DNA of 64,000 nt from a virus. A program made the translations under genes and the position numbers. This document shows positions 21,238 through 44,103 of the stretch, piece by piece (positions within the stretch are counted from its first letter, which is position 1; every line of letters starts with the position of its first letter). The notes under the pieces are model-generated. The model saw nothing but the letters and a program-made list of their open reading frames with translations, was not told the origin of the DNA and did not search any database. Location of the stretch: positions 1 to 64,000 of IMG/VR virus record IMGVR_UViG_3300010151_000008. One strand, 5' to 3'.

Positions 21238-21260
21238 ACATTAAGCGGGGGGTAATAAAG

Positions 21261-22635: not shown

Positions 22636-22637
22636 AA

Positions 22638-24498: not shown

Positions 24499-24499
24499 G

Positions 24500-25473: not shown

Positions 25474-26170
25474 ATCAAATATACTACTTTGCTCATACCC
25501 TCGGTCTGGTTCTTCGTATTTGAGGTTTTTGATAGATAATAATACTGATTACTGTATTGGGACATTATATTCTCATAATGATTTTGATATTAGGCAAACA
25601 TCGGAAGTGTTAGGTAAGCCATTGATTGCTTCTAAGACTCATTTCCCGACTAATGGAAAATGCCTGCCTTCAAACAAATTTACTTCTGTTGGAAAGAATC
25701 ATGGAAATAATTTTGCAAACTCTAAATTGGCTGTTTTAATTAGAAATCCTCACGATACTCTTAAGAGTCAATTGCTTCTCCATAGTAAAGTGCCCCATTC
25801 TTTGATTGATGATTACATTGATATTTTTTGCGAGGATTGGAATAAGTGGATTTCATATTATGAAAAAGTCGAGTGTGTCGATAAAAGATTTTATACTTAC
25901 GAACAATTAAGTATACATTGTTATGATACCGTATGTGATATATGCGAATATCTTAATATCGAAGTGAAGGATAATTTTAAAAATGTTGACAGAAAAGAGA
26001 GTGTGCGTCGTGTGTTATCGGCCCGCTGTCGCAATCCTAAATTTATAGGGGAATGTAAAATTTTGAATTATAAGAGTTTTTTTTCCCCTGATCAATGTAA
26101 GCGCATATATCAATTATGTAAGCGCAATATAACTAATTATTTTTCTTTTTTAGAAGAATATGATAACTAA
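25466..26170 (+). CDS. Sulfotransferase
   Basis: The start chosen is ATG 25466, overlapping the previous stop; a longer frame runs upstream into that gene. The product has 234 residues. ILLCSYPRSGSSYLRFLID is the 5'-phosphosulfate-binding loop, and KLAVLIRNPHDTLKSQLL the 3'-phosphate motif. It is distant from the sulfotransferase at 19.7 kb. Cys-rich patches (DICEYL, ECKIL, QLCKRN) may not be functional. The gene is among the most AT-rich in the window, a sign of separate acquisition. Confidence 0.82.
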   Translation: MNKSNILLCSYPRSGSSYLRFLIDNNTDYCIGTLYSHNDFDIRQTSEVLGKPLIASKTHFPTNGKCLPSNKFTSVGKNHGNNFANSKLAVLIRNPHDTLKSQLLLHSKVPHSLIDDYIDIFCEDWNKWISYYEKVECVDKRFYTYEQLSIHCYDTVCDICEYLNIEVKDNFKNVDRKESVRRVLSARCRNPKFIGECKILNYKSFFSPDQCKRIYQLCKRNITNYFSFLEEYDN

Positions 26171-26179
26171 GAAGGTAAA

Positions 26180-27148
26180 ATGAAAAAAAAAGCTTTAATA
26201 ACAGGTATTGCTGGACAAGACGGAAGTTATTTAACGGAATATCTAATAGGGAAGGGGTATGAAGTCAGTGGTATTATTCGAAGACATTCGGTGGCGGAAA
26301 ATCAAGATTCTAGATTAGATTCCACTTTAAAAAATATAAAAACATATTATGGAGATTTGTTAGATTATCCATCTCTTTATCGGATTGTATCCGAAGTGAT
26401 GCCTGATGAAATTTATAATCTTGGAGCGATGAGTCATGTTCGTATTAGTTTCGACATCCCCTCCTTCACTATTCAGACAAATGCTTTAGGCGTTCTTAAT
26501 ATGTTAGAAGTTTATCGTACTATAGCACCAAAAGCTAGTTTTTATCAAGCCAGCTCTTCTGAAATGTTTGGAAACTCGGTGGATCATGATGGAATTCAGC
26601 GGCTAACCACCCCTATGAATCCGGTTAGTCCCTATGGCTGTGCCAAAGTATTAGGATATAACTTAGTTAGACATTATCGTCATGCCTATGGTTTACATGC
26701 ATGTAATGGAATTTTGTTTAATCACGAATCCCCACGACGCGGAACTAATTTTGTCACGAATAAAGTCGTTAAGGGAGCTGTTGAAATTAAAAAAGGATAT
26801 CGACAACAATTAGAATTAGGAAATCTAGATTCTGAGAGAGATTGGGGTCACGCCAAAGATTACGTACGCGCCATGAATATGATACTAACTCATAATACGC
26901 CTGACGATTTTATTGTCGCCACGGGGAAGACCCGATCAATTCGACAGTTATGCGAACATGTGTTTAGCCAGCTGGGATTAAACTATAAAGACCATGTTGT
27001 ACAAAACCCTATATATATGAGACCTGAAGAATTAAAGTATCTCAAGGGCGATCCCTCGAAGGTTAAAGAGGTGTTGGGGTGGACCCCCGATTACACATTT
27101 GAATCGATGATTGATGAAATGATTGATCGTTGGATGCGCGAAGTATAA
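26180..27148 (+). CDS. gmd: GDP-mannose 4,6-dehydratase
   Basis: The product has 322 residues, the normal size. ALITGIAGQDGSYLTEYL is the NAD(P)-binding glycine motif. RHSVAENQDSR follows. The active site is ASSSEMFGN (Ser/Thr and Glu), with the catalytic Tyr and Lys in SPYGCAKVLGYN. FNHESPRRGTNFVTNKV is the Gmd signature. It makes GDP-4-keto-6-deoxymannose, the precursor of fucose, rhamnose-D and perosamine. No fucose synthase is seen, while a perosamine-synthase-like aminotransferase is, so GDP-perosamine is the likely product. Confidence 0.92.
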   Translation: MKKKALITGIAGQDGSYLTEYLIGKGYEVSGIIRRHSVAENQDSRLDSTLKNIKTYYGDLLDYPSLYRIVSEVMPDEIYNLGAMSHVRISFDIPSFTIQTNALGVLNMLEVYRTIAPKASFYQASSSEMFGNSVDHDGIQRLTTPMNPVSPYGCAKVLGYNLVRHYRHAYGLHACNGILFNHESPRRGTNFVTNKVVKGAVEIKKGYRQQLELGNLDSERDWGHAKDYVRAMNMILTHNTPDDFIVATGKTRSIRQLCEHVFSQLGLNYKDHVVQNPIYMRPEELKYLKGDPSKVKEVLGWTPDYTFESMIDEMIDRWMREV

Positions 27149-27163
27149 ATTAACGAGAAGAAA

Positions 27164-28093
27164 ATGAAAAAGTTCGGACTAATCGGTGCCTCAGGATATA
27201 TAGCGCCCCGGCATATGAAAGCAATTAAAGACACGGGGAATAAGCTCCAGGTGGCCTTGGACCCAAGTGATTCGGTGGGAATAATGGATTCTTATTTCCC
27301 GGAGGCCTCATTCTTTACCGAGGTGGAAAGATTCGATAGACACATTGATAAACTGCGCCGGAGAAACGAGGGCTTGGATTATATTAGTATATGCTCTCCA
27401 AACTATTTGCACGAGTCTCATGTAAGGCTTGCTCTAAGAAACGGTTGCGATGTTATTTGTGAAAAGCCTCTTGTGGTAAACCCGCACAACTTAGAATACC
27501 TAGATCTTCTAGAGCAAGAAACAGGAAAGAAAATTAATAATATTGTACAGCTCAGACATCATGAGGCGGTAGTCGACTTAAAGAAAAGCGTTAATAAGAC
27601 TGAGATATATGAGATAGATTTATCTTACATAACTTCTCGCGGCCTGTGGTATCAATATTCTTGGAAGGGCGCCGAATCCAAATCTGGTGGTCTAACCACA
27701 AACATTGGTATACATTTTTTTGATATGTTGATTTGGATTTTTGGCAATGTTATTAGAAACGAGGTTCATGTCCTGGAGAAAGATGTGGCCTCCGGATATT
27801 TATGCCTGGAGAACGCACGCATAAAATGGTTTCTAAGTAGTAATTATAAATTTTTACCCGATGCAGTGAAAAAAGCTGGACGACGCACATACCGATCTAT
27901 TAGAATAGATGATAAAGAATTTGAATTTAGCGGCGGCTTCACGGAGCTTCATACTGCGAGCTACCAACACATATTAAATGGAGACGGCTTCGCTGTTTCA
28001 GATGTTCGGCCGGCTATTAATTTAGTACACAGTATCAGGTATAGTAAGCCTATCGGCTGCAATAGGAATAGTCATTCCCTTCTGGGAGGATAA
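27164..28093 (+). CDS. wlbA: UDP-GlcNAc-uronate dehydrogenase, WlbA/WbpB type (Gfo/Idh/MocA family)
   Basis: The product has 309 residues. The Rossmann start is KKFGLIGASGYIAPRHMKAIKDTG, then SICSPNYLHESHVRLALRNG and DVICEKPLVVN (EKP motif), RHHEAV, YITSRGLWYQYSWKG and TNIGIHFFDML. These match by eye the WlbA/WbpB proteins, which oxidise C3 of UDP-GlcNAcA in the route to UDP-2,3-diacetamido sugars. The partners WbpE (aminotransferase) and WbpD (acetyltransferase) may be the genes at 22.6 and 17.6 kb. No WbpA dehydrogenase is in view; the host could supply it. Confidence 0.88.
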   Translation: MKKFGLIGASGYIAPRHMKAIKDTGNKLQVALDPSDSVGIMDSYFPEASFFTEVERFDRHIDKLRRRNEGLDYISICSPNYLHESHVRLALRNGCDVICEKPLVVNPHNLEYLDLLEQETGKKINNIVQLRHHEAVVDLKKSVNKTEIYEIDLSYITSRGLWYQYSWKGAESKSGGLTTNIGIHFFDMLIWIFGNVIRNEVHVLEKDVASGYLCLENARIKWFLSSNYKFLPDAVKKAGRRTYRSIRIDDKEFEFSGGFTELHTASYQHILNGDGFAVSDVRPAINLVHSIRYSKPIGCNRNSHSLLGG

Positions 28094-28810: not shown

Positions 28811-29136
28811 CAATTTGGATAATAATATTTGTTTTATCGGTTTTGTTAAATATCACCTTGGCGTGGTACGTCTATAAGGTGTTAGCAAAGCTGCTTTACA
28901 CAGCCGATAATCTTGGCGACCTGTATGTTGCATTTCGTATGTATGAAAGATTTTGTGATTCTCTATATGAAATGGATATGTTCTATGGAGAACCGGTCAT
29001 TAAAGAGTTAATTGACAAAACAAAGCTTGTGCGCGAGGAGTTGCAAAGGTTTGAGGATATATACGGCTTGACCACCGATGCGGAATTACTTGAGGAGGAA
29101 ATGGCCGATGACGAAGCCCAAGAAGAAGCGCGCTAA
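28807..29136 (+). CDS. Membrane-anchored hypothetical protein
   Basis: The product has 109 residues: one N-terminal helix (residues 3-24, IWIIIFVLSVLLNITLAWYVY) and a charged cytoplasmic domain with a long acidic tail (LLEEEMADDEAQEEAR). It overlaps the gene before and, by 29 bases, the sigma factor gene. No family recognised. Confidence 0.55.
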   Translation: MTIWIIIFVLSVLLNITLAWYVYKVLAKLLYTADNLGDLYVAFRMYERFCDSLYEMDMFYGEPVIKELIDKTKLVREELQRFEDIYGLTTDAELLEEEMADDEAQEEAR

Positions 29137-29809
29137 GAGGCGTAAGAATTATTATTTTACACAAGTGCACGAAGATGCCATTGTTGAATATGCCAATACC
29201 ACAGACCGCGATCGGAGAACTGAGCTATATATTGAATTAATCCAGCCGGCCCTCGATGAAATGGTTAATAAAATCATTTTTACTTATCGATTTACGTCGC
29301 TTCCTAATATTGATTATTTACGTCAAGACTGTAAAATATGGTTGACCACGATTCTTGATAAATTCGACCCTTCCAAAGGGTCAAAAGCCTTTTCTTATTT
29401 TAGTGTTGTAACTAAAAATTGGTTTATTCATAAAGTTAAACAAAACGCTCGCCGCGCGCGCAAAGAAGTTTTCCTAGAGGACATGATAAACGAGCTTGAG
29501 GAAGAAGTTGTATCCCAGGAAAAACAATATGATCAGCTGAGAATAGAACGAGAATTTTGGAACAACTTTTACGAAGAACTTTCGAAGTGGGATGCCGACA
29601 TGCTGAAAGAAAATGAAAAAAAGGTTCTGCAGGCAGTTAAAATCCTTTTTGAATCCTCTGGGGATATTGAAATTTTCAACAAAAAGGCTATTTATTTATA
29701 CTTGAGAGAGATTACGGGGCTTAATACCAAACAGGTCGTCAATAACCTAAATAAACTTCGTAAAAAATATAGGACTTTTAGAGGCAAATGGGAAAGCGGC
29801 GAAATTTAG
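29108..29809 (+). CDS. T4 gp55-like late sigma factor
   Basis: The start chosen is ATG 29108 (MTKPKKKRAKRRKNYYFT), giving 233 residues; an ATG ten codons upstream is within the previous gene. The central region has ALDEMVNKIIFTYRF, YLRQDCKIWLTTILDKFDPSKGSKAFSYFSVVTKNWFIHKVKQ, the sigma region 2-like pattern of phage late sigma factors (FDPxKG..AFSYF). The protein is longer than T4 gp55 because of basic and helical extensions. It should direct host RNA polymerase to late promoters, probably including those of the tail genes that follow. Confidence 0.88.
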   Translation: MTKPKKKRAKRRKNYYFTQVHEDAIVEYANTTDRDRRTELYIELIQPALDEMVNKIIFTYRFTSLPNIDYLRQDCKIWLTTILDKFDPSKGSKAFSYFSVVTKNWFIHKVKQNARRARKEVFLEDMINELEEEVVSQEKQYDQLRIEREFWNNFYEELSKWDADMLKENEKKVLQAVKILFESSGDIEIFNKKAIYLYLREITGLNTKQVVNNLNKLRKKYRTFRGKWESGEI

Positions 29810-30084
29810 AAGATTACATCAACGAAGCCACGCGCAACATTAGAGAAGATCGCGCGCTGGCTAAAACGCTTCTTATGGACGCCATGTCTGACATGAAAAG
29901 CGGCGACGCTGCACGTCGAGAACTTGGCTCCATTGCCGCTAAATATGTCGAAAATCTTCAGCGTTCTAACGAACAAATGGTTAAACTCTCTGCACTCCTT
30001 CAGAAGCAGCAATCTGGCGCTGTCGGTCTATCGGAAGAAGACAAAGAGGACCTATATGATATGCTCAACGAGAACGAGGAATAG
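29788..30084 (+). CDS. Small helical hypothetical protein
   Basis: The product has 98 residues, helical and charged (EDYINEATRNIREDRALAKTLL ... EEDKEDLYDMLNENEE). It overlaps the sigma factor by 22 bases and ends three bases before the first hub gene. It may be a phage assembly or packaging protein, but the family is not recognised. Confidence 0.55.
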   Translation: MGKRRNLEDYINEATRNIREDRALAKTLLMDAMSDMKSGDAARRELGSIAAKYVENLQRSNEQMVKLSALLQKQQSGAVGLSEEDKEDLYDMLNENEE

Positions 30085-30087: not shown

Positions 30088-31302
30088 GTGGCCAAGAAGA
30101 AAAAAAGTCGTATCAATCAGATGCGTTATGGGGAGATGAATTTTTTAGGGTCTGCCTATGGTAAATCAACTTTTGACCCAAGCCGCGTAGATATTATAAG
30201 TGTTTTACAGGGAAGCAACACCGATTATTATACTGCCAATGTAATCGCCGGGAAGCGACGTTGGAATGCTATCGTACTGAGATCCACTCAACAAACGCAT
30301 GCTACAGTTTCTTCAGAATTCCAGAGATCCTATACCGTTTTTGAGCGGGGAAATGAAGATGGCGAATTTGTACATTTTACATATAAGATTTATATAGCTG
30401 AGCTAGACGGTTTTAAGAAAATCCCTGAAAAGTTCTCGTCTAATTCAGAGGACGCCGGCCTGGTAAACTTATGCCGAGACGCGCTAGCGCCCCTAGGTCA
30501 ATCATATGGCAAGATAGATTATGGTACGCCCGTCGAGGTGGTCTTTGCCGACCAAGAAAAGTTAAGACACCCAACAATTGTAGATGTCCACTGGAATCGA
30601 AGGATTTCATTGCAGAGCGGAGTGCAGCCCCTGTGGACCACGTCAGGCCCCCGAGTGACGGTAGCATCCCCCCACGAGGGCGCCCTACCAGAGGATACCG
30701 GACCCCCCATTCCCGGTCGCGCAGGTCAGGTTCGGAACGGAAAGGCCTTCTACGACGACCTCGGCCGTGCTGGAATAGAGTGTGAGGCGTTGCGCCATGG
30801 AATTTTGGTTAACGTTAAAAATGAGTCAAGATTTGATCCTAGCGTCCCGGGTGACTCCATTCAGCGCTTGGGCGCCCCAGGAAAGCCGGGAGGTATAAAA
30901 ACAGATTACCCGGGCAACCCCGACGCACCATGGCCAAAACTACCCACAAAACTTTATGCTTCCTACGGCCTGTTTCAAATGAACATCGGCCGATCCGACG
31001 CCCTGGGCTGGCAGATGTTAGAATATTACAATTTGACCGATGCTGACAACGACGCCAAATTGGATATTTTGACCGGCGAAAAGGGATATGATAAGCAAAT
31101 AGAATTTATGGTTCATAAGCTAGAGACAAATTATCCTTCGGTCCTCGATTGTTCTAGGTATAAAACTTCACAGCAATATCACGATTTCTGGCTTGAGCAG
31201 ATCGAAAATCCCTCTAAGACTGAGGCCATCGGTCACCGCAACAGACGTAAAGGACTCTTTAAAAGAACCCTTAGAGGACTCGGTTTTGAACCGATCGAAT
31301 AA
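30088..31302 (+). CDS. Baseplate hub paralog 1, C-terminal lytic transglycosylase domain
   Basis: The product has 404 residues and starts at GTG. Residues 1-175 (INQMRYGEMN, FDPSRVDIISVL, KRRWNAIVLRSTQQ, FQRSYTVFERG, YGTPVEVVFADQEKLRHPTI) are shared with the next two genes. After a Gly/Pro linker, NVKNESRFDP near residue 250 and YASYGLFQMNIG are the ESxFxP and GLFQ motifs of SLT-type lytic transglycosylases, with the catalytic Glu near residue 249. The protein probably sits at the tail tip and cuts peptidoglycan at entry. It plays a role similar to T4 gp5, but with a transglycosylase. Confidence 0.85.
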   Translation: MAKKKKSRINQMRYGEMNFLGSAYGKSTFDPSRVDIISVLQGSNTDYYTANVIAGKRRWNAIVLRSTQQTHATVSSEFQRSYTVFERGNEDGEFVHFTYKIYIAELDGFKKIPEKFSSNSEDAGLVNLCRDALAPLGQSYGKIDYGTPVEVVFADQEKLRHPTIVDVHWNRRISLQSGVQPLWTTSGPRVTVASPHEGALPEDTGPPIPGRAGQVRNGKAFYDDLGRAGIECEALRHGILVNVKNESRFDPSVPGDSIQRLGAPGKPGGIKTDYPGNPDAPWPKLPTKLYASYGLFQMNIGRSDALGWQMLEYYNLTDADNDAKLDILTGEKGYDKQIEFMVHKLETNYPSVLDCSRYKTSQQYHDFWLEQIENPSKTEAIGHRNRRKGLFKRTLRGLGFEPIE

Positions 31303-31304
31303 CA

Positions 31305-32501
31305 ATGTCTACTAAAAAAACAGCTCTGAAAGATATCCGCCATGGCGAAATGAATGCTTTAGAAGCACCTTCAACGCAGCCTAGATTTGATCCCTCCCGT
31401 GCGCAGGTTGTTGACGTAATGAGAAACAACATATCAAACCATTATACGGCCAACACCATCAAGGGCAAAAGACGATGGAACGCGATTGTTCTTAAGAGCA
31501 CACAGCAAAAGTATGCGCACGTTGCGTCTGAATTTCAAAGAACCTATACGTCCTACGAGAGGGGCAATAGTGATGGTGAATTTACACACTTTACATATAA
31601 AATATTTATAGCAGAGCTTGATAGCTTTAAGAAGCTCCCTGAAGACTTTAGGAATAGCGGGCCCAGCGCTGGCTTACTTAATTTATGCCGAGATGCCATA
31701 TCTCCTTTGGGGAAGAGTTGGGGCAAGATAGATTATGGTACCCCGGTCGAAGTTGTATTTGAAGACCAGGAGAGACTCCGTACTCCAATTATTACAGACG
31801 TACATTCTAATCGACGCATTGCTCTTAAGGGTGAAAAAAGCGCACAAGGACTTTTCCTTACGTCTCCGCGGATCGCGCGCGAATCAGCCGGAGGATCTGC
31901 AACTGTTGGTAGCCGTACGGTAACAGACTGCAACGAAACTGATTTTGGAGCTTTAAAGAATGTTGATACGTGGCCAAAAAGATGGCGCTCAAAGTGGCGT
32001 GCAATGGAAAAGGCTTCCCGAGCCACCCGAATGGATACGGCCTATAATTATTTTATAAACAAGGATTATAGTGCCGCGGCTAGCGCAGGTATAGTGGGTG
32101 GTTTGATACAAGAGTCATCAGTTAGCCCGGACGCTTGCAATAAGACCGATAAAGATTATTGCGTGGCATACGGTATTGCGCAGTGGACCTCTGAGCGCCA
32201 AAAGAGATTGAAAGAAAAATATCCTAATACCTACAATACACTAAATTCTCAACTAGACTGGTTATACTACGAGCTATCCCAAGGGAGGGAACAAAAAGCC
32301 GGCAGGCTGTTGTCTGCTGCCACCACGTTAGGAGAGGCTGTATATGGGGCTGCCAATTTTGAGAGATTTAGTGGCTATAAGAGCGGTCAACAAGGAATTT
32401 ATACGAACTGTCCTGATTTTGGAAGAGGGCACGAATGGGGCGGCCGCGCCTATTATTCGGTTGGGGTTTACGAACGACACAATAGTTCCGCGGGAGTTTA
32501 A
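31305..32501 (+). CDS. Baseplate hub paralog 2, C-terminal tail-lysozyme domain
   Basis: The product has 398 residues. The first 170 match paralog 1 (DIRHGEMNALE, FDPSRAQVVDVM, KRRWNAIVLKSTQQ, YGTPVEVVFEDQERLRTP). After a linker, AASAGIVGGLIQESSVSPDA near residue 265, VAYGIAQWTSERQKRL and SQLDWLYYEL follow the tail lysozyme (Phage_lysozyme2) pattern, where the Glu in QES is catalytic. It probably cuts glycan chains by a hydrolytic route different from its neighbour. It starts three bases after the preceding stop. Confidence 0.85.
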   Translation: MSTKKTALKDIRHGEMNALEAPSTQPRFDPSRAQVVDVMRNNISNHYTANTIKGKRRWNAIVLKSTQQKYAHVASEFQRTYTSYERGNSDGEFTHFTYKIFIAELDSFKKLPEDFRNSGPSAGLLNLCRDAISPLGKSWGKIDYGTPVEVVFEDQERLRTPIITDVHSNRRIALKGEKSAQGLFLTSPRIARESAGGSATVGSRTVTDCNETDFGALKNVDTWPKRWRSKWRAMEKASRATRMDTAYNYFINKDYSAAASAGIVGGLIQESSVSPDACNKTDKDYCVAYGIAQWTSERQKRLKEKYPNTYNTLNSQLDWLYYELSQGREQKAGRLLSAATTLGEAVYGAANFERFSGYKSGQQGIYTNCPDFGRGHEWGGRAYYSVGVYERHNSSAGV

Positions 32502-32508
32502 ATAGGTA

Positions 32509-32562
32509 ATGTCCATCAAAAAGACAGTGGCCACGATGGTGTGGCGGAGGTACACAAGCTAA
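32509..32562 (+). CDS. 17-residue leader-like peptide coupled to hub paralog 3
   Basis: ATG 32509 to TAA 32560-32562 encodes MSIKKTVATMVWRRYTS, and the stop overlaps the next ATG (TAATG). Its start is like the N-terminus of paralog 2 (MSTKKTALKD), so it may be a remnant or may serve only to bring ribosomes to the next start. No conservation evidence is available. Confidence 0.25.
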   Translation: MSIKKTVATMVWRRYTS

Positions 32563-33977
32563 TGGTTATCAAGCTAGATAAGATTACTCAGATGCGTTAT
32601 GGCCAGATGAATGAGCTGGTTGACCCCATCGCTCAACGACGATTTGATCCGAGCCGAGTGGAGATGGTTAGTGCACTCCGCTCTAACAATATTGATCGCT
32701 ACGTGGCAGATGTTATAGAGGGAAAGGAACGCTGGAACGCGATTGTTTTGTCGAGCACGCCACAGAATTATGCACACGTGGCGTCTGAGTTTCAACGAAC
32801 ATATTCTGCTTTTGAAAGACAAGACGGGGAATTTACACACCACACTTATAAAATTTTTATAGCTGAGCTAGATTCCTTTAAAAAGTTGCCCGACAAGTTT
32901 TCTCGTAGCGACAATCCGGATGCAGGACTGCTTAACTTATGTCGGACTGCTATCGCGCCTCTTGGCCAAGGGTGGGGCAAGATAGACCACGGAACCCCGG
33001 TGGAGGTGGTTTTTGAAGATCAGGAAAGACTAAGAAGTCCAATAATTGTAGACGTACACTGGAACAGGAGAATGCCTTTAGAGGCGGGTAAGACGGCGAC
33101 GTGGTCTGCAGCCGCCCCCCGTGTAACGGTGCCCACTAACGATAATTTAAAACAAGCGCCCCCACCGGTGATCGAAGGCTGCGACAACTATTTTATACCA
33201 TCAAGAGCTGGAGCGAACAAGTCGAGGGTCTTGGCCCTCGGGGCCTCTTTTGCGTCGGGCAAGCAAACTTGGGCTGGCCATGAGAGATTAAATCGCAAAC
33301 CTAGTGGAAATTTAGATCTGGACAGGGTGGCAAAGGGGAGTATGCTATTGGCCGGAGGGAAGAAATCAATACTTGCTCATCTGCAGGCAAACGTCAATTC
33401 GGGATGTATAAAGGCAGAAGACTATGACTCAGTAATAATATTTGGTGGCGCTAACGGAATGACGGACAGAAAAGAAAATCAATGGGAGATGGGTCTTAAA
33501 AAACTTTTAACATACGTACGAGATGAGATGGGGATTCAATACAGATATGTTGTAACCCTCCATGGCTGGTATGGCTGGAGAGACACGAGGAGAAAACTGG
33601 CCGATAAGGACAGCGGACTCCCTGATGACCCGAGCACACCAGATGTTGATGAATCAAAGGAGGAAGTTTGGGCGAGCGGCTGGAAAGAACCTAAAAGAAA
33701 AAAAGTAGCGGAGTGGACACTGAAGTATAACAACGACATCATCGCAGCCGAGGGTGACCTCATTACTGGCGTCTTAAGGTGGAGCAAGGACGCGACCGCC
33801 ACTAACGAGACTGGAAGCGAAGACATAGGCGAGATTATTCCAATAGGAGAACCAGGAGGACCTCGCGACTGGTTCCGAAAACCATGGGCCAGCAGCGATG
33901 GCTTACATCCCAGTGAGGCAGGCCACAAGGAAATTGCGCGCCGTCTTCGCGCGATGGGGATCCCAGGTCTAAAGTGA
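32562..33977 (+). CDS. Baseplate hub paralog 3, C-terminal SGNH-hydrolase domain
   Basis: The start chosen is ATG 32562 (MVIKLDKITQMRYGQMNEL), which matches the paralog N-termini; GTG 32541 upstream is less likely. The product has 471 residues. Residues 1-190 match the other two paralogs. The C-terminal part has VLALGASFASG (GDS-like nucleophile loop with Ser), VIIFGGANG (block with Asn) and DGLHPSEAGHKEIA (DxxH dyad), the SGNH/GDSL pattern. It should remove ester-linked groups from cell-surface glycans or peptidoglycan. The catalytic Ser position in GASF rather than GDS is unusual. Confidence 0.82.
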   Translation: MVIKLDKITQMRYGQMNELVDPIAQRRFDPSRVEMVSALRSNNIDRYVADVIEGKERWNAIVLSSTPQNYAHVASEFQRTYSAFERQDGEFTHHTYKIFIAELDSFKKLPDKFSRSDNPDAGLLNLCRTAIAPLGQGWGKIDHGTPVEVVFEDQERLRSPIIVDVHWNRRMPLEAGKTATWSAAAPRVTVPTNDNLKQAPPPVIEGCDNYFIPSRAGANKSRVLALGASFASGKQTWAGHERLNRKPSGNLDLDRVAKGSMLLAGGKKSILAHLQANVNSGCIKAEDYDSVIIFGGANGMTDRKENQWEMGLKKLLTYVRDEMGIQYRYVVTLHGWYGWRDTRRKLADKDSGLPDDPSTPDVDESKEEVWASGWKEPKRKKVAEWTLKYNNDIIAAEGDLITGVLRWSKDATATNETGSEDIGEIIPIGEPGGPRDWFRKPWASSDGLHPSEAGHKEIARRLRAMGIPGLK

Positions 33978-34034: not shown

Positions 34035-34100
34035 ATGATGCCAACGTTAAAAGAATATTATAGACAGAAAGAGGATAGAAATGGCCGACGACCCCACTAG
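34035..34100 (+). CDS. Very short possible peptide in the gap after the hub genes
   Basis: The 103 bases between paralog 3 and the spike-like gene contain one 21-residue frame, MMPTLKEYYRQKEDRNGRRPH, that overlaps the next gene's start. There is no clear ribosome site. It is listed because nothing else is seen in the gap. Confidence 0.15.
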   Translation: MMPTLKEYYRQKEDRNGRRPH

Positions 34101-35397
34101 AACATCAGCCGAGATAGCACAATCTCTAGCTTATTATGACCCTACTTCGGGCCCCCCGATTATTCCCCCCGATCCATCTTCTCCCGATGGTGAGATTCTT
34201 TATGGCGAACTGGGAGATGAGCGTAGAGAAAGTTATAATAACTACGCCATGGATCTCGATCAATATGATCGGCAGCTGGAACAGTACGAGGAATATTTAA
34301 CCTCTCAGCAAGATCCTGGTTCTGCTAATCCTGCGATGTCACCCGGGGCGATTACCGCCGCAGCCGGTGCGCTTGGTCTGCCCGACCCTCCAGGCCTCCC
34401 CAGTTCGGGCCCCCCCGCCCCCGGCGCGTCGTCCTTGGGGCCCGTGCAACAAAAACCAGCTGTAGATTTGGGAGACCCCCTTGAGGCCGAGTCATTTGAG
34501 AAGATGTCTTTGCCGGATCAGATTGCTTTTTCGGGTATTGGAGGTTCCAAGCGCCGCGGCGTAGACGTCCCCAAATTTATTAAGACGCCTGCAGAAAAAG
34601 TTTTAGACAATGGAAATGCTTTTATTGTTTTGGGGGTCGACCGAAGTGGTAATCCGTTTGAGGGCTATGGTGGACTGGGAAACACTCATTGTGCGGCGAT
34701 TGATATTGTTGCCGGCCGCATGGGCGCCCGCGCTAGAAGCAGAGATGATAGCAAACCTTTTCCGAAGCCGGTGTGGACCAACGTTGGTTTTATTGCCGAC
34801 GCTGCGCGCGTATATATTTCTCAAAAGTCAAATGTGGATGCATATTTTGGCCTGGCAGCCGGCACAGTAGGGAATACATCATATGAATCGCCTCGGTCCA
34901 CTGTCGCTCTCAAAGCCGACACTATTCGAATCATTGGCCGAGAAGGGATCAAGCTGGTGACCAATACGGATACTCAAAATTCTCAAGGCGGTGTTGTACA
35001 TGGCTCTCCCGGTATTGACTTGATAGCAAATAACAATGATGAGGACATGCAGCCGCTTGTGAAGGGTAACAATTTGATAGAGGCACTTAAAGAAATATTA
35101 AAACTAATTGACGATCTTCGCGACCTATTTAATAACTTTGTTAGCTATCAAAAAGATCTGAATCGAACGTTAATGACGCATAGCCACTATTCTCCATTTT
35201 ACGGAGCGGCTACGAGCCCGGATCCACAAGTGATTCGACAGGCTACCCAATTTTTGATCGATACTGTTAGAAACGTAGAACTGGGCGCCCAGAACCACAT
35301 GATGAATTCAGTTGGAATTTCAATGAATTATTTAGAACTTCCTCTGCCAGGAAAAGACAGCACTTACATAAATAGTACCAACAACCACACGAATTAA
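34081..35397 (+). CDS. Putative tail-spike / baseplate central protein
   Basis: The product has 438 residues. The first 130 are Pro/Gly-rich and disordered-looking. Residues 140-320 form a compact region, and the segment VALKADTIRIIGREGIKLVTNT with VHGSPGIDLIANN has the short repeated strands seen in beta-helical needle proteins and gp5-type C-termini. The end has a helical stretch (LIEALKEILKLIDDLRDLF) and a HSHYSP motif that may bind metal. It follows the hub genes, so a puncturing spike or hub cap is likely. Confidence 0.65.
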   Translation: MADDPTRTSAEIAQSLAYYDPTSGPPIIPPDPSSPDGEILYGELGDERRESYNNYAMDLDQYDRQLEQYEEYLTSQQDPGSANPAMSPGAITAAAGALGLPDPPGLPSSGPPAPGASSLGPVQQKPAVDLGDPLEAESFEKMSLPDQIAFSGIGGSKRRGVDVPKFIKTPAEKVLDNGNAFIVLGVDRSGNPFEGYGGLGNTHCAAIDIVAGRMGARARSRDDSKPFPKPVWTNVGFIADAARVYISQKSNVDAYFGLAAGTVGNTSYESPRSTVALKADTIRIIGREGIKLVTNTDTQNSQGGVVHGSPGIDLIANNNDEDMQPLVKGNNLIEALKEILKLIDDLRDLFNNFVSYQKDLNRTLMTHSHYSPFYGAATSPDPQVIRQATQFLIDTVRNVELGAQNHMMNSVGISMNYLELPLPGKDSTYINSTNNHTN

Positions 35398-35401: not shown

Positions 35402-38400
35402 ATGGCACGCACACCCAAGATAATAAGCAAATGGACGAGCAAAGAAACTGGTGTTGCTTATACGCAGTTTAATAAATCAAAAGTAGCAGTACAGACACAG
35501 TATACCACAGCAGATGAAATTGAACAAAACACTGAGGCGATTCTTGAACTGGGCGCCCTTGCTCTTATGCGCTATTATTTCCCCGGCTCTTGGTATCAGG
35601 TAGCTGCAGGGGTCCAGGGTGACACATATGGAAGTCTACTTTTTAGTAATTTATTAGACAAGCTTACGGTCTCGGCTACCGATTTTAATAGCCGGCCTAA
35701 GATGGGGCTTCGTGTTTTGGTGGCGTGCTCTATTGATTTGACAGATGAGGAAGAGACTGCCGAGATAATTCCTCCCGAGAGTGGCCCGCCAGCTGATTTA
35801 GAGTTAGCATTGGATTATTATCTTTCTACTGGGTCGACTGATATCAAAAAAGTTTCGAGTACCGGCCGATCTATGACATTTTCAGCGGACACCCTCAACG
35901 AAAACCTGAAATTGATTGGCGCCGCTTTTACTAAATATCATAAACAACATCGTTTTTTTAATGGGCAGATTAAGCCTTCAATAAATTTTTTAAAGGAATT
36001 TGATCTTATATCAAGTTCAATTCATGCCATTCTGCGTCTGGCTGCCCAGAACTATATTGACACAGGTATTCACTCAGGTACAACATTTAAAGTTGATTTT
36101 AATGGTGATTATTCTATTGTAAATATAAAAGCCATAACTCCTGAAGGGCGCTACCTATCTCTTCCTGTGGGGTTGCTGCCGTCTTTGGGCGCCGCAGCGT
36201 TGTCTTCAAGACAAACTAATGTTTATCTGGCGTCTTTTAAAGATATATTAATCAAGTTAAGAACTCGGGGCCCGACTCAAGATTCTTATGCCAACTTTAT
36301 TAATTTTATAAAACAAGTATCCTCCCTCGGCCCGACTAAATACAAAATTAATTATTCGGGGCCGTCCCGAACCGCCGATGCCGGCGCTACCGCGGCTGCT
36401 ACCGCCACCCAAGGAACGGCAGCCGCAACCGGCACTGCTACTGGGGTGGATCCAGATGGCCCCCCAAACGCAGAACTTGGTCTGACTCCGGAGGAGAAAG
36501 AGAAACAAGAAAAGGTTATAACTCCCAAAGAGGCGGCAGAAATTCTCGAACAACAGATGAAAAAGGTCGACAAGGCCGCCCAAGAGGTCTCTAAAGAAGT
36601 TGGCAAGAAGTTGCGCGAGTTACAGGGTACCGAAGGTTTTCAAATATTCACGATGATCATCAATCGGATAGGGATTGATTCTCTTGTAAAGGAGGGGCTC
36701 CTTTGTATGCTCTTCGGAGTTGATTTTAGTATACCCGATCTTTATTCTGACATAAGAGATATGCTTTCCGCTGGCGATGGACTTTTTAGTAAGCCAAAGA
36801 CAGGCGCCCTTGTGGGCTTTGATATTCCTAAAGTGGACATGAAGTGGGAAATTTTTAAGATTACGGGAAACATTCAGCCGATGATCAAGAAGGCTCTTTT
36901 GGATGCCGTCTTCGGCGCAGTACGAGGGATCCTTGAAGCCGTTACAGAATTAATTCGCGAACAATGTGAAGCTCGCGATACCGGCAATTTTGGCGACATA
37001 GACCTTGCTAGCCTATTACAAGATAAGCCGGCCGGCGGTACTGGACTACTTGGTGATGGTTCTGGGCCTAATGGTTGTTTTTCTGAATTCGGCTTACCTC
37101 CAACGTCAGGGAACAATTTTCTTTCCCAGGTATCTCAAATCTTGACCCCGATCGAGGCATGCCAGCTTTTGACGGGGTCAGCCTCGGCCGCTGTTATGTC
37201 CGCGGTCCAAAATTTCATTCAAAATTATTCTAGCGCTACAATACAAAACGCTCTTGGGTCGCCCTCTGAAATAGCCGCCTTCTTTTTATGTATAGGGGAC
37301 CAACTCGATGTAAACGATCTTTGTCGGGAAGCTGCCGAGCGCGATATAATCCCCAACGCAGAGGAAATTTGTATTACAGGTGGGGACATTTTAGATGCTG
37401 TGGGTCAACATAATGTTAACACTCTTCTCGATATGCTTAAGGATGGCATCGCGGTGGAAATGCCAGAGATCAACTTACAGTGCCCCGACTCCGAGAACTA
37501 TATTCCCAACCCCTTTGTTGATCGATCGATCCCACAGTTAATGAGCGCTCTAATAGAGTCAATAGCCGCCAGCTTTTATTTCGCGGCCGACGGCACGAAG
37601 GCGGTTCTTTTGAGATCGCAGTTGGGACAGAATGCTACAGCAAATGCTTTGTTAGAGGCTTGCTTAAGCGAGTCAGGTTCAATGCCGGCCTCCGAGGCTC
37701 GCGGCGGAGCTGGCGCCACTCCCGGTGATATTATTGCTATGATCAGTGAGGGCATCCAGGAAGTAGTGTCAACAGACCTTAACGCTGCGTCCGATGCATG
37801 CGGTATCACCTTGGGAGAAATATTCCGAGGAACAGACGATCTAGCCGAGGTATTGGCAACATTTCAAGATGTCATAGAAAACTTTGATTTCTCGGCTTTG
37901 GGAGACATGTCCGCACAGTTGGGCTCGAACGCAAGCGATTTGGCCGCGGCGCAGTTGAGACTCGACTTTCCAGAGGGTTATAAAGAGGATTTCTTAGAAT
38001 TTATTCCTACGGCTATCAAGACTGAACTCTATAATGGCAACTATTTGTACAATTTCAACACAGCCTATCAATCTCCAGCTTTTCATGTAGAAGCGGAGGG
38101 ACCGCCATTCACGTATACGCTCGACGATGGAGACGACGACGGCGACGGCACCCCTAACTACGACGACCGCGACGAAGGCGGCACCGGCGAACCGCACGAG
38201 AACTACGATATGCACGCTCTGCAGAATGCTGCCGACGCCGCGCAGCACGCCGCCATGGCCCGGACTCGATACACGACCACCTTCGCACTCCCAGCTGAGG
38301 GATATCAGGCCAATGCAAATGCAGCTCAGATGCAAGAAGAGTTAGAAGCCATAGAGGAATGGGAATTCAATCATGGTAACTCTAATATGATAGGACAATC

Positions 38401-41400
38401 GAGGCACTTTGAAGAGTGGCTGAAGGGAAACCGGCAAGGTGACCTTTGGTGGGAGGAAGGCCAGCAGGACTGGTGGTCTCCCGAGGGCTATTCGTGGTAT
38501 CAGTGGTTTAAGCTTTGGGCCGAGCAAAGAATTGAGCGCGATGAGGAACAAGGGCCTGATTGGTGGATGCGGTCGACCTTAGCCCTCCCGGCTGATACGC
38601 GTGGCGCGCTCCCCGGGTTTGGCAATAAACAGCTATTAGGTCCGGGGTATGGGCCCGAAGATCCGCAGCCGGAGGTGGATGGCTACCAGCAAGGCTGGTG
38701 GGATATGTACCGTGCCCCAGAGCGCTGGGCCACAGCGACGCAAGCAGAAATACGCGCAGACGAGAGAGTGTGGAAAATATATCAAACGCTGTTCTCGCCA
38801 TGGCTCCGTGCCAATCCAGACGACTCCATTTTGGCCGGCGAATGGGACTACGGCGAGGTCTGGTGGATCGCAAATATTCCATTTGAGTATGTCCCCCGAC
38901 CTCCCGGCCCGGGTGGCGGTGGCCCTCAGCCAATTGCTCACATCGGGCGGTCTACGATGTTCGGTGCACCCGAAGGGATAGGTGGCCGCTCTGCCGGCTT
39001 CTCTGCTGGAACTGGAATAAAATTCCTGTTCCGGAAAGAATATGCGATTCAAAAGTATGAGAGCATTCATTTCCCGAGTTTTCAAGAAGTAACAGAAGAT
39101 AACCAGAATATATTTGTTGCCAGCGCCCCTGTGGCCTTTCGTGGAGAGATTCCTTTTATAGAGGGGCGTCAGGGACTGCAGACGACTACTGCAACAGAAT
39201 TGTATGCCGTGAACCAATCCGCGCACGGATCGGTAATTTCTCCAGATAGAATCGCAGAACGCGACGCCAATCCAGCGCGCGGCCTTTTTGCTGACATAAT
39301 CCACTCAGCATTCGCGAAAAATCTGCTAGAACACGGGAATAGTGACCTAGCCGCGGCCGCGAGGGTCACAGCCGCCGGCGGCGAATACACCTCCGGCATC
39401 TTGGCCGAATTCTATAACAACCTAGAACACCAATATTATTATGCAGCCATGGCCGGAACTATGAAGCAAATGAGTGCTTACATAGTGAAAAATGGTGCAT
39501 TTACACTTGATAGAGTACTTAAGATCCTGGTGGTTCCGGAGAGTGCTAACGATGCTACAGAACAGTTGGGAGATCTACTAGATTTCAAAAAGCTTGTTCG
39601 TGAAGTGCAGGATGAATATGTAGATGCTATTTGCTACGACGGTCTTAGTCAAGACGAGGTTTTGATTAATTCGCTTGTGTACGGAGCTATAGAACTATTT
39701 TTACAAGTGCATCTGGTTGAGTTTTATTTACAAAATGTGTTTGTTTTGTCGGCATTTGATTTAGACGGGCTGTACGAACTAGAATTGGTGATGGCATATA
39801 TTTCTTCCTCCATACAAAATACGATTGCTACTTTTTTGCAGGGGATAAGTGCCTCAGGGGCCCAGTATAATTTGTTTGAAACGAATTTTCAAGATGCGGT
39901 AGTGGAGCATGTTAGCAGAAAAATTATACGCGACGGCGGCGCTCCTATCGATGGTGAGATTCTGTCATCTTTGGGAATGTCAGAAGGCGATTTGGGAACC
40001 TACGAAGCTAGCATTAGATATCTTCTGGCTAAAAGGATGAAGGAATCCGCCCCAGCTGTATCTAAAATTATCTCCCAATGTTCACTTGGGTCTGTCGACG
40101 AAGTCTTCTTGAAGGCGGGAATTGGCATTTCTAAACCATTTTTGAAAGGCCTAGGAGCCGATTGGGGACTTAGTTCTACTAGTCGATATCTAGTAGCATC
40201 GCCAGGTGATCGGGATCTTGGGTTTACCGAGGAAGATGCTCAAATTATTGCCTATGGTGGATTTAGATTTGAGAAAATAATTAGATTCACACCGCATACA
40301 TCCGGATATTACGGAGGCTCTGAGGAAAATCCAGATGTACACCTAAGGGTGGACAAGGAGCTGGGAACCATTGCAGGGGGCAATTGGGTAGCTAACGACA
40401 CCTTTAAGATCGGCTCGGCCTATCACACCGATTCACCAATAACACAAAACTTTGTTTCATTGGACAAGCTAATTAGAGTTTTAGACGACCCCGCGGTTAC
40501 GGATAACATGACCATTCTGGGTAATCCAACGTTATATTATCGATTGGTATATTATGTTCCGATGCAAACTCGATCCGAGTATTCCGCCAACTCCTCCGGC
40601 GAAATAATTTTCGCGGACTCGGCAACTAAAAACCAAGAAATAATGGACACGATCGAGGCGTACTTCCTCGATGCTCGTGACGGAGATGACGCCATAGTGA
40701 GAGACACGCTCGATACCCTTATCAACGACCAAGCTTCATTTGTTCCGTTCTTGGTGGGCCCCGGCGGAGGGGACGCATCGATGTCGCACGCCGTCGCCGC
40801 GCCCGCATCGAGACAGAACATGACGATAGGAATTCCCATTTTAGAAGTTGAGTCGGGGGTAAATCTACCCAACAGTATGCGTCTTGATACTGATTCGAGC
40901 GCTCCCAAGCGGTACTGGGGCGCCCCCACAACGGGTGGATTATCGTTGATAAGGTCTTTGGCAGAAAAGGATTTCTTAGATGGAGATGTCGAGATCATCA
41001 TGAATGACGAGGTTGTGAAAGCACTGTTTAATAAGAGTCTGAGCAAAGATGTTATTCTGTCTACCCTCTTGTTTAATAATTTTTATCTAACAAAATCACA
41101 CTTTAGGGGAATCGATACGATCTTTAAGTCCTGCAAGGAATCGGTGGCCGCACTAATGATGCAAATACAGCAAGGCCGCGGCCTCCAGCCAGACGCTGGT
41201 GCAGCCGGCATCGCTCAAATACAGAATGCTTTAGCTAATCAAGGTCAGGGGGGAGGTAGTGACGATCCCAACGTGGCGGCCTATATCATAAAAGCTATAA
41301 TCCAAACTCCTTTTGATATCCTTAAGGGCTTAGCCGAGATAATGGATCCACATGTTGTTATAACCAAAATGATAAAAGATATAAGTGGTATGGTGATAAC

Positions 41401-41836
41401 ACAGTTTATTGAGGTTTTAGAGTCAGCATTTGGCGCCGTCCCGGGCCTAGCACAGCTTGACATTGATGTGGAGAAACTAGTAGAAGTTCTTTTCTGTACC
41501 ATGAATGAAGAAATAAAGAAGAACGGGCCCATGTCAAACGCCGCGGCAGAAATATCAGAGATGTTGTGTCAAGACATCAATCCGTGGCCCACCTTTACGA
41601 CAAAAGGAATCCAGTTTACTGGGACCATTCCCGGCATGTTTATGGCCCCTCCGGGCCCTCTGGGAATTTTCTATCTTATATATGGATTACTTAAAAACGA
41701 GATTGACAGAGGTATTGACGATGCCTTCGCCGCCCCAGCCGGCGAAACAGACGAATTCTGTATTGATGTAGAAGCTGTTGTCGAAGGCGAAGAAGATACT
41801 GGCTGCGTACCGTTCACTGCGCAGCGCGACGACTAA
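35402..41836 (+). CDS. 2144-residue baseplate protein with a Trp-rich insertion
   Basis: No known family is recognised. The first 320 residues look globular, then an Ala/Thr low-complexity linker near 320-350 precedes a helical region (EQQMKKVDKAAQEVSKEVGKKL). Near residue 910 is DDGDDDGDGTPNYDDRD, like a calcium-binding thrombospondin type-3 repeat. Residues about 980-1170 are unusually rich in Trp (WWEEGQQDWW, WYQWFKLW, GWWDMY), as if an extra domain had been inserted. Later parts are helical and hydrophobic (VITQFIEVLESAFGAVPGL). The position between spike and gp25 genes suggests a baseplate or tail-tube-linked scaffold. Start ATG is five bases after the previous stop. Confidence 0.7.
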   Translation: MARTPKIISKWTSKETGVAYTQFNKSKVAVQTQYTTADEIEQNTEAILELGALALMRYYFPGSWYQVAAGVQGDTYGSLLFSNLLDKLTVSATDFNSRPKMGLRVLVACSIDLTDEEETAEIIPPESGPPADLELALDYYLSTGSTDIKKVSSTGRSMTFSADTLNENLKLIGAAFTKYHKQHRFFNGQIKPSINFLKEFDLISSSIHAILRLAAQNYIDTGIHSGTTFKVDFNGDYSIVNIKAITPEGRYLSLPVGLLPSLGAAALSSRQTNVYLASFKDILIKLRTRGPTQDSYANFINFIKQVSSLGPTKYKINYSGPSRTADAGATAAATATQGTAAATGTATGVDPDGPPNAELGLTPEEKEKQEKVITPKEAAEILEQQMKKVDKAAQEVSKEVGKKLRELQGTEGFQIFTMIINRIGIDSLVKEGLLCMLFGVDFSIPDLYSDIRDMLSAGDGLFSKPKTGALVGFDIPKVDMKWEIFKITGNIQPMIKKALLDAVFGAVRGILEAVTELIREQCEARDTGNFGDIDLASLLQDKPAGGTGLLGDGSGPNGCFSEFGLPPTSGNNFLSQVSQILTPIEACQLLTGSASAAVMSAVQNFIQNYSSATIQNALGSPSEIAAFFLCIGDQLDVNDLCREAAERDIIPNAEEICITGGDILDAVGQHNVNTLLDMLKDGIAVEMPEINLQCPDSENYIPNPFVDRSIPQLMSALIESIAASFYFAADGTKAVLLRSQLGQNATANALLEACLSESGSMPASEARGGAGATPGDIIAMISEGIQEVVSTDLNAASDACGITLGEIFRGTDDLAEVLATFQDVIENFDFSALGDMSAQLGSNASDLAAAQLRLDFPEGYKEDFLEFIPTAIKTELYNGNYLYNFNTAYQSPAFHVEAEGPPFTYTLDDGDDDGDGTPNYDDRDEGGTGEPHENYDMHALQNAADAAQHAAMARTRYTTTFALPAEGYQANANAAQMQEELEAIEEWEFNHGNSNMIGQSRHFEEWLKGNRQGDLWWEEGQQDWWSPEGYSWYQWFKLWAEQRIERDEEQGPDWWMRSTLALPADTRGALPGFGNKQLLGPGYGPEDPQPEVDGYQQGWWDMYRAPERWATATQAEIRADERVWKIYQTLFSPWLRANPDDSILAGEWDYGEVWWIANIPFEYVPRPPGPGGGGPQPIAHIGRSTMFGAPEGIGGRSAGFSAGTGIKFLFRKEYAIQKYESIHFPSFQEVTEDNQNIFVASAPVAFRGEIPFIEGRQGLQTTTATELYAVNQSAHGSVISPDRIAERDANPARGLFADIIHSAFAKNLLEHGNSDLAAAARVTAAGGEYTSGILAEFYNNLEHQYYYAAMAGTMKQMSAYIVKNGAFTLDRVLKILVVPESANDATEQLGDLLDFKKLVREVQDEYVDAICYDGLSQDEVLINSLVYGAIELFLQVHLVEFYLQNVFVLSAFDLDGLYELELVMAYISSSIQNTIATFLQGISASGAQYNLFETNFQDAVVEHVSRKIIRDGGAPIDGEILSSLGMSEGDLGTYEASIRYLLAKRMKESAPAVSKIISQCSLGSVDEVFLKAGIGISKPFLKGLGADWGLSSTSRYLVASPGDRDLGFTEEDAQIIAYGGFRFEKIIRFTPHTSGYYGGSEENPDVHLRVDKELGTIAGGNWVANDTFKIGSAYHTDSPITQNFVSLDKLIRVLDDPAVTDNMTILGNPTLYYRLVYYVPMQTRSEYSANSSGEIIFADSATKNQEIMDTIEAYFLDARDGDDAIVRDTLDTLINDQASFVPFLVGPGGGDASMSHAVAAPASRQNMTIGIPILEVESGVNLPNSMRLDTDSSAPKRYWGAPTTGGLSLIRSLAEKDFLDGDVEIIMNDEVVKALFNKSLSKDVILSTLLFNNFYLTKSHFRGIDTIFKSCKESVAALMMQIQQGRGLQPDAGAAGIAQIQNALANQGQGGGSDDPNVAAYIIKAIIQTPFDILKGLAEIMDPHVVITKMIKDISGMVITQFIEVLESAFGAVPGLAQLDIDVEKLVEVLFCTMNEEIKKNGPMSNAAAEISEMLCQDINPWPTFTTKGIQFTGTIPGMFMAPPGPLGIFYLIYGLLKNEIDRGIDDAFAAPAGETDEFCIDVEAVVEGEEDTGCVPFTAQRDD

Positions 41837-41887: not shown

Positions 41888-42283
41888 ATGGCTAATGGTT
41901 TATCGGTGGCTCTTCCGCTTCAACAGAGTCCTATTTTTGGTACGTACAGACTAAACACCACGTTTGCAGAGATCGCGCGACAAAACCTGAAGATGCTTTT
42001 GTTAACCAATCCGGGCGAGAGAATGATGGATCCGGAGTTTGGTGTTGGAATGCAGAGATACTTATTTGAAGCGAATACGAAGTTTGTATACTCAGAGATA
42101 CAAAGTAGAATTGAGCAGCAAGTTAAAAAGTATCTTCCATACATAGGAATAGATAAAATTGAGTTTTTAACATCCGCTTTGGAGTCAGCCGTTGATCCTC
42201 ACTATTTGGGAGTCAATGTTTCTTTTATAATACTGCCACTTAACATGAGTTCTCTGTTGCAGATTAATGCAAACGGAAACTAA
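41888..42283 (+). CDS. gp25/W-like baseplate wedge protein
   Basis: The product has 131 residues, the usual size. The pattern IARQNLKMLLLTNPGERMMDPEFGVGMQRYLFE contains the GERxMxPxFGxGxxxxLFE signature of the gp25 family. A conserved sheath-initiating role in the baseplate is known for T4 gp25 and P2 W. It precedes the gp6-like gene, as in many contractile-tail phages. Confidence 0.93.
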   Translation: MANGLSVALPLQQSPIFGTYRLNTTFAEIARQNLKMLLLTNPGERMMDPEFGVGMQRYLFEANTKFVYSEIQSRIEQQVKKYLPYIGIDKIEFLTSALESAVDPHYLGVNVSFIILPLNMSSLLQINANGN

Positions 42284-42312: not shown

Positions 42313-44103
42313 ATGCCAAAAAAACTGCAACCGATTAACTACACAAGTAGAGACTTTGATAGTATCAGGCGTGACTTAGAAAATTACGCTAAGCGCTATT
42401 ATCCCGATTCGTATCGAGACTTTAATGAAGCCAGTTTTGGCTCTTTGATGTTGGACACCGTTTCCTATATAGGGGATATTCTTTCCTTTTATATAGATTA
42501 TCAGACCAATGAAAGCTTTTTAGACAGCGCTATAGAATATAGTAACATAGTACGTCTTGCGAGGCAACTCGGGTTTAAGTTAAACTCCAGCCCCTCGTCT
42601 TATGGGGTTCTGACTTTTTATATCAGCGTTCCGGCTTCCACCTCGGAAGACGGACCAGATTTGGCGTACGCACCCACTCTACAAGCCGGCTCTCAGTTTG
42701 GTTCGAGCGGCGGTGGCCTTTTCACCCTTCTTGAAGATATTACTTTTTCCAACCCCGCTAATCAGATGGTGGCCGGCGTGATAGTTAATGAAGCGCCCGC
42801 ATCTTATGTTATACGTGCCCAGGGGCGCGCGGTTTCTGGACGGCTAGCACGAGAAACCAAAATTGTTGGAACCTATGAGCGTTTTAGAAAAGTATTTCTT
42901 TCATCTGACCAGGTCGCAGAGATTATATCAGTAACTGATTCCGAGGGTCATGAGTACGTAGAGGTTAATAATCTCTCTCAGAACGTAGTTTATAAGGCAA
43001 TTCGGAATACTCAAGCGTTTAGTGATACGGTACCCTCCATACTGAAAGCGGTGCCGGTCGCCCGCCGATTTACAGTTGAGAGGAGCAAGCGCGCCACTTA
43101 CTTGCAGTTTGGGTACGGATCTGACTCAGAGCTGCTTGCGGAATCGATAGCTGATCCATCTAATGTGGTTTTAAAGCTTCATGGAAAAGATTATATTACT
43201 GAAGATGATTTTGATCCAACGAGATTAATAGAAAGTGATAAATTTGGAATTGCTCCGGCTGATACCACATTAACGATCTCCTACAGAGTTAATACAACTC
43301 GCGATGTTAATGCGGCGGTGGACACTGTTGTACAGGTCTTATCCCCGCAGATAAAATTTTCAAACCAGGGCGCCTTGAATTCCACTACCAGACGAGAGGT
43401 GGCTGCGAGCCTTGAGGTAACCAACGAAAACCTAATTACAGGGGATATATCTTTGCCATCCTCTGATGAAATCCGCCAACGGGTAATTTCTCATTATTCG
43501 GCACAAAACCGCGCGGTAACAGCACAGGATTATCAGGCTGTCATTTATGGCATGCCCGTCTATTTCGGATCTGTAAAACGGTGTTCTGTGGCGAGGGACT
43601 TTACGGAGTTTAAAAGAAACGTCAACATGTATGTTATTTCTGAAGATACAACGACCGGTCGACTTACCACTACCAACTCCATTATCAAAACCAACCTTAG
43701 TACGTGGTTGGCCCAATACAAAATGATAAATGATACACTTGATATATTAGATGCCATCATAGTCAACTTTGGCGTGGAGTATCGGCTAATATCAGACTAT
43801 GACTCAAATAAATATACAGTGCTAAAAAATGCCAATTCTGCCCTAACTGCACACTTTTCCAGAACTCGTGATATCGGTGAGCCGGTATATATTACAGATA
43901 TTTATAAGGTATTGAATGGCGTTAAAGGAGTAGTAGACGTGTTGGATGTTCAGATAGTTAGCAAAACGGGCGGCATTTATTCATCGACTGGATACGATTT
44001 CGAAGCAAAACTATCTAACGACGGTCGTTATATAGTTGGAGATCCGTCGGTTATATTTGAGTTGAAATACCCCAATGTAGATATTCAGGGATCAATCACA
44101 TAA
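42313..44103 (+). CDS. gp6/J-like baseplate wedge protein
   Basis: The product has 596 residues. It begins INYTSRDFDSIRRDLENYAKRYYPD and continues with FGSLMLDTVSYIGDILSFYIDYQTNESFL, typical of T4 gp6 and J-type wedge proteins; RAVTAQDYQAVIYGMP near residue 395 is the second conserved block. It dimerises in the inner baseplate ring. Its stop overlaps the next start. Confidence 0.92.
   Translation: MPKKLQPINYTSRDFDSIRRDLENYAKRYYPDSYRDFNEASFGSLMLDTVSYIGDILSFYIDYQTNESFLDSAIEYSNIVRLARQLGFKLNSSPSSYGVLTFYISVPASTSEDGPDLAYAPTLQAGSQFGSSGGGLFTLLEDITFSNPANQMVAGVIVNEAPASYVIRAQGRAVSGRLARETKIVGTYERFRKVFLSSDQVAEIISVTDSEGHEYVEVNNLSQNVVYKAIRNTQAFSDTVPSILKAVPVARRFTVERSKRATYLQFGYGSDSELLAESIADPSNVVLKLHGKDYITEDDFDPTRLIESDKFGIAPADTTLTISYRVNTTRDVNAAVDTVVQVLSPQIKFSNQGALNSTTRREVAASLEVTNENLITGDISLPSSDEIRQRVISHYSAQNRAVTAQDYQAVIYGMPVYFGSVKRCSVARDFTEFKRNVNMYVISEDTTTGRLTTTNSIIKTNLSTWLAQYKMINDTLDILDAIIVNFGVEYRLISDYDSNKYTVLKNANSALTAHFSRTRDIGEPVYITDIYKVLNGVKGVVDVLDVQIVSKTGGIYSSTGYDFEAKLSNDGRYIVGDPSVIFELKYPNVDIQGSIT

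Follow-up and report, generated by a model that had tools for sequence, protein, structure and literature searches.

The virus record IMGVR_UViG_3300010151_000008 raises the question of why a phage should encode three consecutive proteins that begin with the same domain and end in different enzymes, and whether the three could sit together on one tail tip. The stretch analysed here, referred to as the window, is 64 kb (positions 1 to 64,000) of this 92,746-base IMG/VR virus record. The three genes, P1, P2 and P3, are tandem open reading frames (ORFs) on one strand, whose products have about 175 N-terminal residues in common and then diverge. We somewhat favour the reading that they are hub adapters of the T4 gp5* type, encoded apart from the spike, and that one tip carries a mixed enzyme set; the sequences suggest, in particular, that the three enzymes may reside together on a single tail tip. 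The genes and their shared domains are as follows.

30088..31302, plus strand: P1, N-terminal OB-type hub domain and predicted divergent lysozyme-like C-terminal domain
30091..30645, plus strand: OB-type hub domain of P1 (family profile E=6.6e-78; five strands in the model)
31305..32501, plus strand: P2, N-terminal OB-type hub domain and PF18013 phage tail lysozyme
31305..31859, plus strand: OB-type hub domain of P2 (family profile E=4.3e-78)
32562..33977 (likely), plus strand: P3, N-terminal OB-type hub domain and putative SGNH/GDSL esterase
32562..33116, plus strand: OB-type hub domain of P3 (family profile E=8.8e-79)

A first-pass annotation had described three tandem paralogs with one common N-terminal domain, and this was confirmed in three ways: (i) the first ~175 residues of P1 to P3 showed 59-62% identity in an alignment over the whole of that stretch, (ii) BLASTP gave 62-65% identity with E around 1e-85, and (iii) a search of the whole 92,746-base record found exactly three copies of the domain. 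The similarity of the three N-termini is far beyond chance. The listed ORF of P3 spans 32541-33977 with a GTG start at 32541; the ATG at 32562 is the likelier start, since it has GGAGG upstream and brings the N-terminus into register with those of P1 and P2. Between P2 and P3 lies a 17-codon mini-ORF (MSIKKTVATMVWRRYTS; 32509-32562), the beginning of which resembles the start of P2 (MSTKKTA) and the TAA of which overlaps the likely ATG of P3 (TAATG). It possibly reflects translational coupling or a remnant of a duplication junction, and was not seen in the relative L003.

For the C-termini, all assigned from sequence, the same annotation had named an SLT transglycosylase, a tail lysozyme and an SGNH hydrolase. 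The tail lysozyme held, as P2 matched PF18013 (Phage_lysozyme2) with 70.5 bits, above the curated cut-off of 28.2 (E=2.1e-19); P2 also gave a weak SLT match in Pfam and a weak match to phi29 gp13 (PDB 3csr, E=0.037). The transglycosylase was rejected for P1, which had no SLT match in Pfam and only a sub-threshold one to PF18013 (22.4 bits against the cut-off of 28.2). P1 and P2 are both predicted to be lysozyme-like, with an ES pair at the catalytic-helix position in each (the candidate catalytic Glu of P1 lies in VKNES, 30814-30828, and the LIQES motif of P2 at 32103-32117). The SGNH assignment of P3 stood in part: its Ser, Asn and Asp-His blocks are recognisable (GASF, 33237-33251; GGAN, 33441-33455; DGLH, within 33894-33908), with block I reading GAS instead of GDS, whereas its score against the GDSL/SGNH family PF00657 falls just under the cut-off (21.3 against 23.6 bits; E=3.4e-4). 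An SGNH profile is common to P3 and the relatives L003 and L008. PDB sequence searches with the C-termini of P1 and P3 returned nothing meaningful.

If the three enzymes belong together, their combinations in related loci should bear on it. SGNH profiles match ten loci, every one of which also has a muramidase-like module; this lies on a neighbouring paralog in seven of the ten, and in the others (L015 and the group L025/L026/L027/L113) SGNH and muramidase occupy one chain, the muramidase of L015 and L113 being PF11860 and the chain of L113 carrying an M15 domain as well. Because fused partners usually act together, these fusions favour co-residence. No locus with SGNH as its sole enzyme was found with these profiles, which could miss other SGNH types. 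Two-copy loci devoid of SGNH also pair unlike enzymes, namely M23 with amidase_2 in L097 and, in L041, M23 with a domain whose motifs are M15-like. The same data bear on the alternative that each tip is a homotrimer of one protein, so that a burst would contain three kinds of virion as a form of bet-hedging. T4 gp5 is a homotrimer (PMC3004832), Serratia VgrG1 and VgrG2 formed no heterotrimers under native conditions (PMC4924876), and most relatives are single-copy and must employ homotrimers or a single species; however, the constant company of SGNH and muramidase, fused in L015 and L113, makes the pair seem needed together, and the middle copy of the triple locus L013, which has no enzyme, would yield enzyme-free tips. 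We regard this alternative as unlikely.

The triple locus L013 encodes, in order, an SGNH protein, a bare OB protein that stops cleanly ahead of the next gene, and a lysozyme-like protein. The OB domain also occurs alone in L082, L142 and L086, and the existence of such bare proteins argues that the OB part functions in its own right, without an enzyme. Other arrangements were seen: in L129 (8668-9971) the spike gene is preceded by distinct genes for the OB protein and for an M15-like peptidase, while the single-copy hub proteins of L055, L124, L127 and L135, of 1200-1430 amino acids (aa), carry amidase_2 plus M15 or M23 on one chain.

The shared domain has no covering family in Pfam, PHROG or NCBIfam, no PF04717 was found in the record, and the OB-family profile returned nothing meaningful against PDB sequences; PHROG 430 matched just one family member (E=0.15). 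An AlphaFold2 (AF2) model of P1 built from 57 sequences (mean pLDDT 77) shows an N-domain with five strands. The top Foldseek matches of this model in the PDB were nearly all to ribosomal protein uS12 (probability mostly 0.9-0.99, E of at least 0.02), which is a classical OB-fold protein. Against viral models, Foldseek returned tail-lysozyme proteins together with entries for a gp5 OB domain or a hub, those at E <= 1e-3 including an entry named 'Protein Gp5, N-terminal OB-fold'; cyanophage 'baseplate hub + tail lysozyme' entries rank lower. On the strength of the model and of its matches to uS12 and viral gp5-type proteins, the domain is assigned as a probable OB fold, an assignment that concerns the fold and not sequence-family membership in gp5.

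The placement of this domain in the tail hub, also proposed in the first-pass annotation, is supported by its fold and by its position before a spike-like gene, with gp25 and gp6 homologs downstream. The neighbouring genes are as follows.

29788..30084, plus strand: 98-aa conserved protein, a homolog of which immediately precedes the first hub copy in 42 distinct loci; positional marker
34081..35397, plus strand: P4, candidate for the spike (gp5C-like beta-helix); in relatives it immediately follows the hub genes
35402..41836, plus strand: 2144-aa protein, after the spike gene and followed by the gp25-like gene
41888..42283, plus strand: gp25-like baseplate wedge protein, from sequence; same order in relatives
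42313..44103, plus strand: gp6-like baseplate wedge protein, from tblastn matches to Flavobacterium phage immuto and cyanophage proteins annotated as baseplate wedge

P1 to P3 lie with baseplate genes whose order is kept in relatives: the succession of P4, the 2144-aa protein and the gp25-like gene is conserved in L003, L008, L009, L012 and L013. In almost every locus the hub genes stand directly before the P4 homolog, a slot that in the IMG/VR relatives is filled by OB or OB-enzyme genes. P4, with 427 relatives in one IMG/VR scan, has a strand-rich sequence with an invariant HxH, and in an hhalign comparison it aligned over 206 columns with the C-terminal portion of hub-spike candidates of Flavobacterium and Microcystis phages, which occupy the same gene place (P=0.002, against 0.45 for the reversed control). 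The hub-domain profile had no similarity to these candidates. P4 itself had no match in Pfam, PHROG or the PDB, the spike profile returned nothing meaningful against PDB sequences, and an AF2 monomer model of P4 (six sequences; pLDDT 38) was unusable and was kept out of the fold search. The 2144-aa protein, which had no Pfam or PHROG match, adjoins the spike gene in relatives too and may belong to the machinery of the hub or tube.

In T4, gp5* consists of OB and lysozyme parts, the OB being an adapter between gp27 and the beta-helix, and is cut from gp5C (PMC3004832). We propose that each of P1 to P3 would similarly dock through its N-terminal OB adapter at the junction of hub and central spike, with the enzyme attached behind a flexible linker, and that the beta-helix of the spike would be supplied by the separate next gene, P4. 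The parts that a protease separates in T4 would here be separate from the start; not being threaded into an intertwined spike, an adapter encoded by its own gene would be free to duplicate and to exchange its enzyme. As one docking site would be common to the three copies, a mixed enzyme set per tip would be expected. On such a tip, the SGNH esterase P3 might strip ester groups such as O-acetyl on N-acetylmuramic acid (MurNAc), and the two different lysozyme-like enzymes P1 and P2 might then cut the glycan. This esterase-then-muramidase logic rests on the blocking of lysozyme by MurNAc C6 O-acetylation (PMC6174289). We infer the docking site, the co-residence on one tip, the esterase substrate and the order of action alike.

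The likeness to T4 gp5 therefore resides in an N-terminal OB part, at fold level, placed at the hub-spike junction and followed by a lysozyme-type domain (clear in P2, sub-threshold in P1, replaced by SGNH in P3), and T4 gp5* after cleavage is, like P1 to P3, separate from the beta-helix. Unlike T4 gp5, the chains of P1 to P3 end after the enzyme without a C-terminal beta-helix, for which the separate gene P4 is the candidate; the paralogs number as many as three and differ in their enzymes; and there is no sequence-family match to gp5.

How the three proteins would share the tip can be framed more narrowly. A heterotrimer of P1, P2 and P3 is plausible, and, as adapter and spike are separate genes, an ordered heterotrimer could be placed on a homotrimeric spike. 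That it would be obligate, its three symmetry-related positions taken by an esterase and two distinct muramidases, we consider doubtful. Random mixing of equal amounts was computed to give all three proteins on about 22% of tips (6/27), and a bulk 1:1:1 ratio cannot tell heterotrimers from a mixture of homotrimers.

A further alternative is that only one paralog enters the hub-spike ring and that the OB domains of the others serve at another position of the baseplate or tail. OB-type folds serve for docking in a generic way, and the present data do not tie these domains to one binding partner; yet the OB domains were found to diverge together by genome, as expected for one common partner, and single-copy relatives keep their hub gene in the same slot. 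We judge it improbable, to the same degree as homotrimeric tips. When the window is compared with L003/L011, the triple-copy relative nearest to it, the OB domains cluster by genome, pairing by position being rejected (p-AU 0.0014, 7e-5 and 1e-4), whereas the first and third enzymes do pair by position (P1-Q1, 51% identity; P3-Q3, 46%). The middle enzyme differs, being PF18013 in the window and of a different lysozyme-like type in the relative. This pattern arose either through homogenisation of the OB domains inside each phage or through the joining of new OB copies to old enzymes, and both scenarios fit adapters obliged to match one partner. The SGNH domain of L008 is as close to P3 (50%) as is that of the triple-copy relative, but the OB domain of L008 shares only 22% identity with that of P1, which indicates that enzymes move between phages as modules.

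The copies could also be plain tandem duplicates of no particular architecture, left by an expansion that is transient or in decay, and the range of copy number from 1 to 3 across relatives speaks for this. It accords poorly with the state of the genes, and we hold it to be very improbable. All three frames are open and their catalytic blocks intact; dN among the window paralogs is about 0.3 with synonymous and third positions near saturation, so that the copies are old and conserved as proteins; and the relative 3300009605_000020 has kept three copies in the same place. Neither recent duplication nor visible gene-conversion tracts were seen, the nucleotide identity of the paralogs being <=0.8 in all 60-nt windows.

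Counting distinct IMG/VR loci with the small conserved upstream gene directly before the first hub copy, we found one copy in 32, two in 7 (among which L088 and L089 are near-identical) and three in 3. A wider count gave 58, 7 and 3 loci, respectively, together with one locus without a detected copy, and none of the relatives counted had more than three. The state changed between single and multiple copies at least seven times on the tree. A tblastn search of phage records with the N-terminus of P3, P4 and the spikes of relatives gave no significant relatives. With copies mostly single, sometimes double and rarely triple, three is no rule, and the notion of three copies because of a trimer is weakened by the one or two copies of most relatives.

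Several observations weigh against the adapter reading favoured here. The weak Shine-Dalgarno sequence ahead of P2 implies that the yields of P1 to P3 may be unequal. No Pfam match to gp5 families was obtained for P1 to P3 or the 57 family members, the E-values from Foldseek are modest, and a gp27-like protein was not found. P4 is a putative spike by its position, its strand pattern and one weak profile comparison. The substrate proposed for P3 is a guess, and surface polysaccharide could be the target instead.

The first-pass annotation had called a tip with three enzymes a new design. It is not wholly so, as a heterotrimeric spike with different C-terminal enzymes has been proposed for VgrG1, VgrG2 and VgrG3 of V. 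cholerae (PMC3166118, PMC8668125); in Aeromonas dhakensis, effector loading has been given as the explanation of the heterotrimer requirement, and in Serratia, as noted above, heterotrimers were not seen (PMC4924876). The two systems are alike in having three paralogs and a proposed heterotrimeric tip, and some V. cholerae VgrGs have C-terminal enzyme extensions while one has none. Unlike P1 to P3, the VgrG paralogs carry their own beta-helix and belong to a type VI secretion system, not to a phage. Several wall-cutting activities at one tail tip are also known from multi-domain virion-associated peptidoglycan hydrolases such as HydH5, which hold them on one chain, whereas P1 to P3 are parallel paralogs, though L015 and L113 use one chain. 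SGNH-family peptidoglycan O-acetylesterases are cellular enzymes; P3 would resemble them as an SGNH-type hydrolase that unblocks a lysozyme-resistant wall, and no PDB sequence match was found for it. What is new is the multi-copy adapter encoded apart from its spike, together with the enzyme logic across the phage group. The arrangement suggests that the adapter and the spike of a T4-like gp5 can be encoded by two genes. Should co-residence be true, a widespread uncultured phage group builds the enzyme sets of its tail tips by adapter duplication and enzyme swaps, following a consistent logic of esterase with muramidase and endopeptidase with amidase; the question of heterotrimeric spikes, debated for type VI secretion, would extend to phages, and nature would have supplied combinations of wall-cutting enzymes suited to hosts not yet known.

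Elsewhere in the window, the region 29078-29809, just upstream of the hub genes, weakly matched a family of late sigma factors (PHROG 234, E=4e-4), and the baseplate block contains an ORF for 3181 aa (45565-55110) where cyanophages have the giant gp7. Upstream of the baseplate genes, 14397-28093 encodes glycosyltransferase, methyltransferase, aminotransferase and epimerase-like genes, a block typical of surface-sugar metabolism.

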